A stretch of DNA of 24,115 bases from a virus. The notes below the pieces were generated by a model, which worked only from the letters and a program-made list of their open reading frames with translations, was not told the DNA's origin and searched no databases. This document shows, in pieces, positions 1 through 22,210 of this stretch; the first letter of the stretch is position 1; every line of letters begins with the position of its first letter. The stretch is from positions 1 to 24,115 of the IMG/VR virus record IMGVR_UViG_3300023235_000131. One strand, given 5' to 3'. A program made the translations under genes and the position numbers.

Positions 1-103
1 AAGTTTCGTAAGGTTCTGTTGACTTTTGTTTTTCTCTACTTTTTGGGACGAGGGGGTTTGGGGGGGGTTATCTAAAGATTTATTTATTAGAGGCTATTAG
101 AGA
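1..103. other. Noncoding left edge with G-tracts
   Basis: No credible gene is seen here. The stretch carries a G-rich part (five G near 52-56, then a run of eight G at 60-67) and a short direct repeat TATTAGAG at 85-92 and 95-102, just beyond the 3' end of the tRNA-like gene. A TTGACT hexamer at 19-24 has no matching -10 element at normal distance. The function is unknown. Confidence 0.5.
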
Positions 104-201
104 TGGTGCGCCTGACTGGAATCGAACCAGCGACATTGACTAGCGTTCAGTCTTAGCTGAACTTCAACTAACCACCCTCTAACCAGCTGAGGTACAGGCG
201 C
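104..201 (-). tRNA. tRNA-like RNA with an enlarged anticodon arm, CCA encoded
   Basis: Read on the minus strand, the acceptor stem is perfect (GCGCCTG with CAGGCGC), then A73 and an encoded CCA. The D arm is CCTC-AGCTGGTTA-GAGG and the T arm GCTGG-TTCGATT-CCAGT (one G-T wobble). A variable region ATGTC sits in the usual place. At the canonical anticodon-stem positions TGGTT pairs with AGTCA (two wobbles). The loop enclosed is 28 nt instead of 7. Inside it the helix continues for three more pairs, then there is a 4-nt bulge (TGAA), then a 6-bp hairpin GTTCAG/CTGAAC with loop CTAAGA. The whole arm spans 137-174. No 7-nt loop with U33 is available, so no amino acid can be assigned. It could be a tRNA with a 21-nt insertion, a non-decoding tRNA-like RNA, or a decayed gene. 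Confidence 0.7.
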
Positions 202-359
202 TTTAAACTTGAACTTGCCGGTAGTTCCGGATAGTTGTACTCTTGCTGTGGGATTCGGGGAAAGGCGCTAAGTGAAGAGTCCCACAATATACTCATTTGC
301 TTGGGAGTAGTCTGCCCTGACAACCCCCATAGCTTGTGTGTAGGTTTTCACCTACGCCC
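202..359. other. Noncoding stretch with several inverted repeats
   Basis: This lies between the tRNA-like gene and the endolysin stop. It holds CCGG-TAGTT-CCGG at 218-230; a 10-bp inverted repeat (one wobble) pairing 247-256 (TGTGGGATTC) with 277-286 (GAGTCCCACA) across a 20-nt loop; and a perfect 6-bp hairpin at 340-355. It may encode a small structured RNA or hold processing sites. An open frame over 235-417 exists on the plus strand but runs antisense into the endolysin and looks non-genic. Confidence 0.45.
340..355 (-). terminator. Hairpin just after the endolysin stop (possible 3' end signal)
   Basis: GTAGGT-TTTC-ACCTAC is a perfect 6-bp stem with a tetraloop. On the minus strand it starts 4 nt after the endolysin stop codon. 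There is no following U-tract on that strand, so it is not a textbook intrinsic terminator. It could instead stabilise or delimit the transcript 3' end. Confidence 0.3.
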
Positions 360-866
360 TTATTTTACTGTTTTTAGTTCTACGATTGGGTCTTTCGGAT
401 TACCTACAAATTTATAATACTTTTCTATAGACTTGGCTTTAGTGGCTTTACCTAGAGGTGTATTGTAATACTTTTTATAGTAAGCCCAGATTGCGTCAAC
501 ATCGTCTTTAGCTGGCAGTGCTTCCTTAACTCTAAGGTAATGAATTCTAGCCATAGCAGCAGCGTAATCGAGATCATAAATCATGCGGTCAGGTAGTGGA
601 ACTTGATTAATACCTAAGTTGTAACCTAGCGGATAAGTTAGGGCTGGTTTTCTAGCGATGTAGTTACGCCAGATATCATCATGCGTTAGTGGCTCCATTT
701 GGAAAACTCCACACGCAGGGCCTTTGACTTGCTTTACATATTTACCCCCGTTTGATTCTACTGCGCAGGTAAACATTAGAAGCTCTTCGGCCTCGTCACT
801 GTAATGTTTTATCATAGATAATGCTGGCTTTAGTATGTGTTCTCTAAACTGTTTTGAATCAAACAT
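360..866 (-). CDS. Lytic transglycosylase/lysozyme-like endolysin
   Basis: A 168-aa protein with no signal peptide. Residues 32-59 carry the soluble lytic transglycosylase pattern: AVESNGG with the probable catalytic Glu37, followed after about 15 residues by GVFQMEP (G53, Q56, P59), matching the family's E-S...G-x-x-Q-M-x-P arrangement. It would cleave the glycan strands of peptidoglycan. The start at 866 is preceded by a GAGAG ribosome site at good spacing. It is the only protein gene read leftward apart from one HNH gene, and is divergent from the packaging and head genes. As a stand-alone small lysozyme in a phage that also has a virion-borne lysozyme domain (13236-18035), it is best read as the lysis endolysin. 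A virion role is the alternative. No adjacent holin or spanin is recognisable. Confidence 0.65.
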   Translation of the reverse strand: MFDSKQFREHILKPALSMIKHYSDEAEELLMFTCAVESNGGKYVKQVKGPACGVFQMEPLTHDDIWRNYIARKPALTYPLGYNLGINQVPLPDRMIYDLDYAAAMARIHYLRVKEALPAKDDVDAIWAYYKKYYNTPLGKATKAKSIEKYYKFVGNPKDPIVELKTVK

Positions 867-5380: not shown

Positions 5381-5959
5381 TTATACTAATATAGTTTTAT
5401 GCTTGTTTAGATACTGAATGGCGACTTTCATTAATTTGATGTCGTCATTAAAGAAACCGAGTGCAGAATTACAGGAAGCACAAAGGAATTCTCTGGCTTT
5501 GCCTGAATCATGGCAATGGTCTAAATACAAAGAGCGATTCTTTTTGGCTTTGCCTTTAAATTCTTGCTGAGGTTTTTTACAAATAGCACATAGGTTTTTT
5601 TGCTTTTTAAGCATGGTTTCTTGTTCTTGATGAGTAAGGCCGAATTTTCTTTTGTAAAGTTGTTTTTTACGAAGTGGCCATAGCTTTACATTTTGAGCAT
5701 TAATCTTTGCTGGACAATAGTTTTTCTTTTTGTTTGCAGATGAGCATTGCCTGCACCTAAACTGATTACGTTGTTCGCTAAGGCATTGTAATCTTGTTAA
5801 AAGACCGTGTTTGGAGCAACGTTTAACGGCCCATACAGGAAGAACTTCTATATATTGTTTAACCTTATATTTAGTTCTTTCACGCATGTGTTCTAAGCAA
5901 ATAACACGCTTTTGATAACGTAGGTTTTCACAGAATGGGGCTTTGCATTGATTTGTCAT
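5381..5959 (-). CDS. Endonuclease VII-type HNH endonuclease, probable homing gene
   Basis: A 192-aa protein. The C-terminal half is the recombination endonuclease VII fold: FGLTHQEQETMLKKQ (106-120), zinc ligands C124/C127 and C160/C163, the catalytic LDHCH at 146-150, and CNSALG (163-168). The N-terminal half has further Cys/His pairs (C5, C10, C21, H24, C48, C69, C72), likely an extra DNA-binding zinc region. The gene is on the opposite strand, convergent with capsid, with only 1 nt between the stops, and has its own GGAGAG ribosome site. In T4 the enzyme resolves branched DNA before packaging. Stand-alone copies in phages often act as homing endonucleases. The odd orientation inside the late operon favours mobility. 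Both roles remain possible. Confidence 0.8.
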   Translation of the reverse strand: MTNQCKAPFCENLRYQKRVICLEHMRERTKYKVKQYIEVLPVWAVKRCSKHGLLTRLQCLSEQRNQFRCRQCSSANKKKNYCPAKINAQNVKLWPLRKKQLYKRKFGLTHQEQETMLKKQKNLCAICKKPQQEFKGKAKKNRSLYLDHCHDSGKAREFLCASCNSALGFFNDDIKLMKVAIQYLNKHKTILV

Positions 5960-21559: not shown

Positions 21560-22210
21560 ATGTCAATTAGAAAATCTATTCCACCAATTATTAATGGTTT
21601 TAAACTTATTGAAGATTTAGGTATTACATCTGATTTAGGGTGGCGAACCAGAACTTTATTGATGGAGTGTAAAAAATGTGGCAAGCCTTTTAAAATAGGC
21701 TGGGCTAATATGAGAAGTCAAAAGGTTGGCTGCTCTAGGCAGTGTGCTTTTGGTGTGGCAGCAAATAAGAGGCTGCAAAAACTATATGCAAGTATAATTG
21801 AAAGAACTGAAAAGAAAACACATGTTAGCTATGAAAAATATGGCGCCGCAGGAATTAAACTTTGCACAGAATGGCGTGAAGATTCTAGTGTTTTTTATAA
21901 ATGGTGTTTAGGCAACGGGTACTCGGACAGCCTTACATTAGATAGAATAGATAACTCAAAAGGTTATTCTCCTGATAATTGCCGGTGGACTACCAAGTCA
22001 GTTCAATCTCAAAACTCTAGTCAATCAAAATTAAATAATGAAAAAGTCTTGGAAATTCGAGAGCTTCTTAAAACAATTTCAGTAAAGGTTATATGTCATT
22101 TGCATGGGGTCAGTAAAAATATTATCTATGGAATAAAAAAAGGAACTAGGTGGAATAATGTATATTCAGATACCGACGGGCGGCCTCACTCTTTACCCTT
22201 GGCAAAATGA
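21560..22210 (+). CDS. HNH endonuclease with AP2/NUMOD-type organisation, probable homing gene
   Basis: A 216-aa protein. An N-terminal zinc motif (C37/C40 and C58/C62) precedes the HNH core: YEKYGAAGIKLCTEW (91-105), LTLDRIDNSKGY (126-136) with the DRID motif, then NCRW (140-143) and Q-N at 151-152. A C-terminal helix-turn-helix (about 163-198, ending GIKKGTRW) resembles the DNA-binding tail of phage homing endonucleases. A GAGAG ribosome site is present. Its last 17 codons lie over the start of the large terminase gene in another frame, a 53-nt overlap. That is typical of a gene inserted by homing at a conserved target, not of an original operon member. Confidence 0.85.
   Translation: MSIRKSIPPIINGFKLIEDLGITSDLGWRTRTLLMECKKCGKPFKIGWANMRSQKVGCSRQCAFGVAANKRLQKLYASIIERTEKKTHVSYEKYGAAGIKLCTEWREDSSVFYKWCLGNGYSDSLTLDRIDNSKGYSPDNCRWTTKSVQSQNSSQSKLNNEKVLEIRELLKTISVKVICHLHGVSKNIIYGIKKGTRWNNVYSDTDGRPHSLPLAK

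Follow-up and report, generated by a model that had tools for sequence, protein, structure and literature searches.

The window analysed here, a stretch of 24,115 nucleotides of viral DNA, carries on its minus strand (window positions 201 down to 104) a 98-nt RNA gene with a class I tRNA body and an encoded CCA. This RNA is probably a non-decoding phage RNA built on a tRNA scaffold, in which the anticodon arm acts as an exchangeable effector hairpin. The reading is proposed because the body and the stem are kept without decoding features and because the arrangement matches a laboratory scaffold design. The D stem CCUC/GAGG of the window RNA, with its unusual C10-G25 pair, is common to 22 distinct viral RNAs, and the same design is found in at least 21 other uncultured phages besides the window phage. 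On balance, these CCUC tRNA-like RNAs are likely to form a group among phage tRNA-like RNAs that had not been described before. A literature search, which covered few subscription journals, found no description of such RNAs.

The tRNA-like RNA of the window

The whole RNA (104-201, minus strand, 98 nt including CCA) is recognised by the Rfam tRNA model, by ARAGORN and by the family model R1. The match to the Rfam tRNA family (RF00005) spans positions 107-201(-) and scores 44.5 bits, where 29 is the cut-off; it leaves 34 nt of the anticodon arm unaligned. R1 scores 70 bits (E 2.5e-21), the window sequence being part of its training set. By direct reading, the 5' half is GCGCCUG-UA-CCUC-AGCUGGUUA-GAGG-G, followed by the 38-nt arm UGGUUAGU-UGAA-GUUCAG-CUAAGA-CUGAAC-GCUAGUCA and the 3' half AUGUC-GCUGG-UUCGAUU-CCAGU-CAGGCGC-A-CCA. 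The acceptor strands GCGCCUG (195-201, minus strand, as are all parts of the RNA) and CAGGCGC (108-114) form 7/7 pairs. Pairing is likewise complete in the D arm CCUC-AGCUGGUUA-GAGG (176-192; 4/4), which holds the family's C10-G25 pair, and in the T arm GCUGG-UUCGAUU-CCAGU (115-131; 5/5), both identified from the sequence and the alignment. A 5-nt variable loop, AUGUC, occupies 132-136, and the discriminator A with the encoded CCA lies at 104-107. Additionally, the elbow and class I landmarks U8, A14, G15-C48, G18G19 and UUC in the T loop are present. The preliminary description, which had placed all parts of a type I tRNA in register from the acceptor to the CCA, was thus correct on this point. 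Identical copies of the RNA occur on two further contigs of the same phage.

The departure from a tRNA lies in the anticodon arm. A decoding tRNA has an anticodon arm of 17 nt, whereas 38 nt separate position 26 from the variable loop in the window RNA. The strands UGGUU (170-174) and AGUCA (137-141) form the anticodon stem 27-31/39-43, written TGGTT/AGTCA when it was first noticed, and pairing runs on into 167-169 and 142-144. The resulting outer stem reaches 8 contiguous pairs, a length with P = 0.00075 when the arm is shuffled 20,000 times. By direct reading, 28 nt (142-169) replace the 7-nt anticodon loop; position 33 in the class I register is G, and U33 is absent. At the tip lies the apical hairpin GUUCAG-CUAAGA-CUGAAC (145-162). 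This 6-bp hairpin, reported earlier with its loop CTAAGA, is present but weak when taken alone, as a 6-bp hairpin arises in 6.5% of arm shuffles. The earlier claim that the extra bases extend the helix agrees with the 8-pair stem and less well with the energy model. For the window RNA alone, ViennaRNA slightly prefers two adjacent hairpins, UUAGUUGA-AGU-UCAGCUAA and GACUG-AACGC-UAGUC, at about 0.5-0.67 versus about 0.2-0.3 for the extended arm. The extended-arm register is therefore taken from comparison with family members and not from the folding energy of the window sequence, which by itself would leave the register undecided; it is the comparison that decides.

The minimum-energy fold invites another reading, a class II-type decoding tRNA with an anticodon stem-loop of its own (RNA positions 31-49) and a long variable arm (50-64), and ARAGORN's assignment of GAA agrees with it. 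However, 4 nt and not 1 would follow the D stem, no 7-nt loop with U33 would form, and the class I variable loop and the G15-C48 pair are still present in the window RNA. Moreover, most other CCUC members do not have this fold in common, and the class II reading is extremely improbable. The tRNA-Phe that ARAGORN reports uses a stem, GUUAG/UCAGC, that is out of register, contains one A-C mismatch and begins four bases past the D stem, and its variable region would be 24 nt. A normal anticodon with U33, said earlier to be impossible to place, is indeed missing in register, while ARAGORN does place GAA out of register and with a mismatch. Two identities were rejected for the window RNA. Read as tRNA-Phe(GAA), it lacks a 5-bp stem with U-U-GAA adjoining position 26, and as a decoding class I tRNA it has neither a 7-nt loop, nor U33, nor an in-register anticodon, although its body has all the parts.

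Conservation and covariation in the CCUC group

Three patterns were used to search for related RNAs. The first required a class I D arm and a T arm separated by more than a normal tRNA allows; applied to 2.9 million viral contigs, it returned 94 stretches, representing 77 distinct RNAs, 59 of them with an intact body. A canonical anticodon stem-loop is present in 6 of these 59 and absent in 53, and the acceptor stem pairs at 7/7 in 50 of the latter. Some of the RNAs recovered have the CCUC/GAGG D stem in common. The second pattern, this D arm followed by a long gap, matched 24 viral contigs. The third combined the D arm with AAGUCG, left the T arm unconstrained and used a gap that permits a normal tRNA. 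It matched 19 contigs, three of them new, and all three new sequences have a full T arm and acceptor; a 17-nt canonical arm occurred in none of the 19, although the gap permitted one. The resulting alignment (A2) holds 22 distinct CCUC members including the window RNA, against 19 in an earlier count. The D-arm sequence was fixed by all search patterns and the T loop by the first two; the independent evidence consists of pairing in the acceptor and anticodon stems, the AAGUC loop under the second pattern and the T arm under the third. Two features define the group, a CCUC/GAGG D stem and, after it, a class I register anticodon stem whose arm exceeds 17 nt; the window RNA has both. Most members have AAGUC as variable loop, the family consensus; AUGUC of the window matches it at 4/5 positions, and a few others also differ at one position.

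Of all cells in the 22-member alignment, 95.2% are paired; in shuffles the figure is 65.3%, and sliding the 3' partners brings it to 51% or less. In the acceptor stem 96.1% are paired, and all seven pairs (7/7) have changed on both sides. Comparison of the supposed insert among related sequences showed an arm that varies in length, from 20 to 43 nt and never 17, on a class I anticodon stem (27-31/39-43) that is 85.5% paired with two-sided changes at 5/5 pairs. U33 occurs in 5/22 members, about the chance rate. By sequence comparison, therefore, an intact covarying body, a class I stem register, a variable arm length and the loss of U33 are shown for the group, and this pattern indicates that selection has preserved the body, together with pairing where the anticodon stem belongs, in RNAs that have lost their decoding features. 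The preliminary description had spoken of a 21-base insert, which is misleading. With arms of 20-43 nt, neither intron boundaries nor U33, and compensatory change in the body, the arm is better described as replaced than as inserted.

The intron-like or decayed insertion that had been offered as an option is disfavoured on the same grounds. A tRNA-Phe(GAA) gene that carries an insertion and is in decay or was broken recently would account for the T arm and acceptor, which are 86% like the tRNA-Phe GAA of phage Atu_ph07 over 43 nt, the nearest body found for the window RNA. It would likewise account for GAAG in the window arm and the Phe call of ARAGORN. Against it, the acceptor, D and T pairs of the window RNA are intact (7/7, 4/4 and 5/5), the family shows compensatory change in every helix free to vary, and the same design occurs in unrelated phages. 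Decay is thus contradicted for the family and is quite improbable for the window RNA. For the CCUC group, a body and paired stem that are kept while arm length varies make a strong case against simple decay. Even less probable is a precursor of a working tRNA with a short intron in the anticodon loop, where the extra bases are indeed positioned and where archaeal and eukaryotic pre-tRNAs have similarly extended arms. No choice of exons at the standard sites restores U33 with the stem UGGUU/AGUCA, and inspection revealed no bulge-helix-bulge; the arm of L105 is a continuous 10-bp stem. Furthermore, the extra stretch is only about 21 nt, and no group I or other self-splicing intron family was matched in the window, where RF00005 is the only match.

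A different gene, a tRNA-Leu(CAG)-like sequence at L083:7169-7278(-), has a loop that starts normally (CUCAGG) with a long insert before the 3' stem, and resembles an intron or insertion more than the CCUC group does. A second group of phage tRNA-like RNAs, conserved in sequence and independent of CCUC, was also observed (L050, L071, L085, L093/L102, L094, L101 and L104). It has CUGACCC..GGGUCAG and, in place of a canonical anticodon loop, an arm containing CAGUACU or UAGUACU; six distinct sequences were aligned.

Other features of the CCUC members bear on charging and on the arm. An encoded NCCA end is found within the family only in the window RNA, L063 and L116. Because acceptor pairs 2-71 to 6-67 are free to vary and no discriminator base is conserved, one fixed aminoacyl identity is unlikely; ARAGORN calls across the group range over Phe, Thr, Ser, Gly, Leu and Arg, or give nothing. 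Among the apical loops, UUAAA occurs in 5/20 versus 0.85 in shuffles and UAAR, a motif noticed post hoc, in 9/20 versus 3.6; the loop of the window is CUAAGA. The possibility first raised for the window RNA, that of a phage RNA whose tRNA features serve something other than decoding, is now favoured by 22 distinct RNAs, except that retention of the CCA is not family-wide.

Genomic surroundings and distribution

By gene content, the window phage is a podovirus; the head-tail connectors of this phage and of Pelagibacter phage EXVC031P share about 30% identity. On the same strand as the tRNA-like RNA and 159 nt upstream of it lies a lysozyme-like gene (360-866, minus strand; PHROG 3108, a family annotated as of unknown function, "lysozyme-like" being a reading by sequence inspection), which is syntenic in relatives. 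The spacer between the two (202-359, minus strand) is structured, with a folding z-score of -2.5 over 200-362, and shows no clear similarity in the relatives compared. The lysozyme-like gene, the spacer and the tRNA-like RNA may be co-transcribed. The spacer, in which GUAGGU-GAAA-ACCUAC directly follows the stop codon, could be a further small RNA. On a longer contig of the window phage, a J-domain gene follows the tRNA-like RNA. Two HNH/endonuclease VII-like genes were seen by inspection of translations, at 5381-5959(-) and 21560-22210(+); the former opposes the structural genes, directly after a 276-aa gene taken as the major capsid gene.

Relatives keep the gene order of lysozyme-like(-), 200-aa gene(+) and connector(+). 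In L125, whose TerL is 52% identical and whose neighbouring genes are similar, a CCUC tRNA-like RNA follows TerL after 3 nt; with the late genes taken as plus, it is on the minus strand, like the window RNA. L017, with a portal/connector 65% identical, has a divergent tRNA-like RNA 570 nt beyond the lysozyme-like gene and on the same strand. Its acceptor pairs at 6/7 and its T stem at 5/5, and it has a long paired arm, while the family model gives only 12.9 bits. A structural scan of the relatives returned no unreported match besides L017, and one match in shuffled sequence. L055 shares a J-domain protein (54% identical) and also carries a CCUC member, and the remaining members sit in phages with other portal or replication genes. 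As judged from their sequences, the CCUC design recurs in unrelated phages. Among 61 TerL-related loci collected regardless of tRNAs, the CCUC element was found in the L125 phage alone, and it is accordingly considered accessory. Direct relatives of the window phage are mostly without a detectable tRNA or tRNA-like RNA, and many of their contigs stop near the relevant interval. A 59-nt tRNA-like sequence on the opposite strand (L019:143-201, 15.7 bits) with almost no anticodon arm was set aside.

Many related contigs, L020, L030, L032 and L033 among them, stop within 100-600 nt of the lysozyme-like gene on its far side, as the window does, and these ends may mark a genome terminus or a stretch that is hard to assemble. 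Imperfect tandem repeats ACTTACGAAACTTACAAAG..TACGAAAAA occur just downstream of the tRNA-like RNA, at window 1-30 and at about 930-1030 of L014; they are possibly an origin or terminus. The int-alpA RNA family appears just below the cut-off in window-phage relatives (L022:7222-7265(-), 35.2 bits; L021:7163-7227(-), 28.6 bits).

Searches of cultured phages gave no match at near identity with the whole window or with a composite of 13 family members (E 1e-3), and D-arm variants, searched at E 10, gave none there or in E. coli genomes. The consensus of D plus T arm recovered only T-arm pieces from phages and plasmids. Two pattern scans of 257 Gb of genome contigs returned 0 matches, a result that is not trusted, since by estimate the second pattern alone should give about 11 by chance; virus-specificity is therefore not claimed.

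The main rival to the effector reading is a pure intergenic processing signal, in which phage mRNAs are separated or stabilised through cuts by RNase P and 3' nucleases at the tRNA body, and the arm merely drifts. Many members lie where such punctuation would be expected, in short gaps between co-oriented genes, as in L130 (12 and 24 nt), in L136 (8 and 26 nt) and in L055, 10 nt past the upstream gene. A conserved body with neither a conserved acceptor sequence nor a conserved CCA fits as well. However, the L125 and L081 elements are convergent with a neighbouring gene and so cannot separate co-transcribed genes, and an anticodon stem that stays paired and is often lengthened is not expected from mere drift. 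Punctuation as the sole role is rather unlikely.

Proposed role and relation to known systems

In the proposed tRNA-scaffolded, non-decoding role, the tRNA body would be kept intact as a scaffold for processing and stability, and the anticodon arm, freed from decoding, would be occupied by a longer hairpin. The RNA would be transcribed together with neighbouring genes, excised by host RNase P and 3'-processing enzymes to leave a CCA end, and folded like a tRNA through its elbow. The extended arm would then be the effector, with a host protein or RNA as its probable target. How the RNA is transcribed, processed and charged, and what the hairpin binds, is inferred.

Compared with a canonical class I elongator tRNA, the window RNA has the same acceptor, D and T arms, elbow nucleotides and variable loop, along with the CCA in this copy, whereas its 38-nt arm, its C10-G25 pair and the lack of U33 and an anticodon set it apart. 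A tRNA body without a decoding anticodon is also found in tmRNA and in viral tRNA-like structures. In contrast to these, the CCUC RNAs have no tag-coding region and do not form an mRNA 3' end, and they keep the D arm and the class I stem register. Neither ARAGORN nor Rfam finds a tmRNA in the window.

The laboratory counterpart is the artificial tRNA scaffold used in E. coli. There the anticodon stem-loop has become a site for inserts in which a hairpin is retained, and cellular factors continue to recognise the RNA (PMC3753655). The acceptor, D and T arms are kept in both, with a hairpin at the anticodon stem-loop; the CCUC RNAs differ in being natural and viral and in having a group-specific D stem and variable loop.

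Against defences that cleave tRNAs, phage tRNAs are known, or have been proposed, to act by replacement or through altered anticodon loops (PMC11555353; PMC10264068). A special case of the tRNA-scaffolded effector reading is a decoy for tRNA-targeting defences or tRNA-binding enzymes, which would bind an anticodon nuclease or similar effector without being a useful substrate. This would fit the phage tRNA biology of those reports, and the diversity of the arms would suit an arms race. However, the known defence-evading phage tRNAs, while having the same phage-encoded tRNA body, decode and have arms of normal size (PMC10264068; PMC11555353), whereas the CCUC RNAs have enlarged arms and cannot decode in register. 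No shared anticodon-like target sequence was seen among them, and the decoy role in particular is unlikely.

Beyond the CCUC group, it is conceivable, if somewhat short of probable, that phages widely carry a class of non-translating RNAs with an intact tRNA body and a swappable hairpin, which host processing would turn into stable, end-protected effectors, possibly directed against host defence or translation factors. Phage tRNAs without a readable anticodon are easily missed by annotation tools or assigned a spurious anticodon. If conserved groups of them are selected for the body and not for decoding, phages would have a natural version of the laboratory tRNA scaffold. If true, this would give a testable, non-decoding answer to the question of why phages carry tRNA genes.
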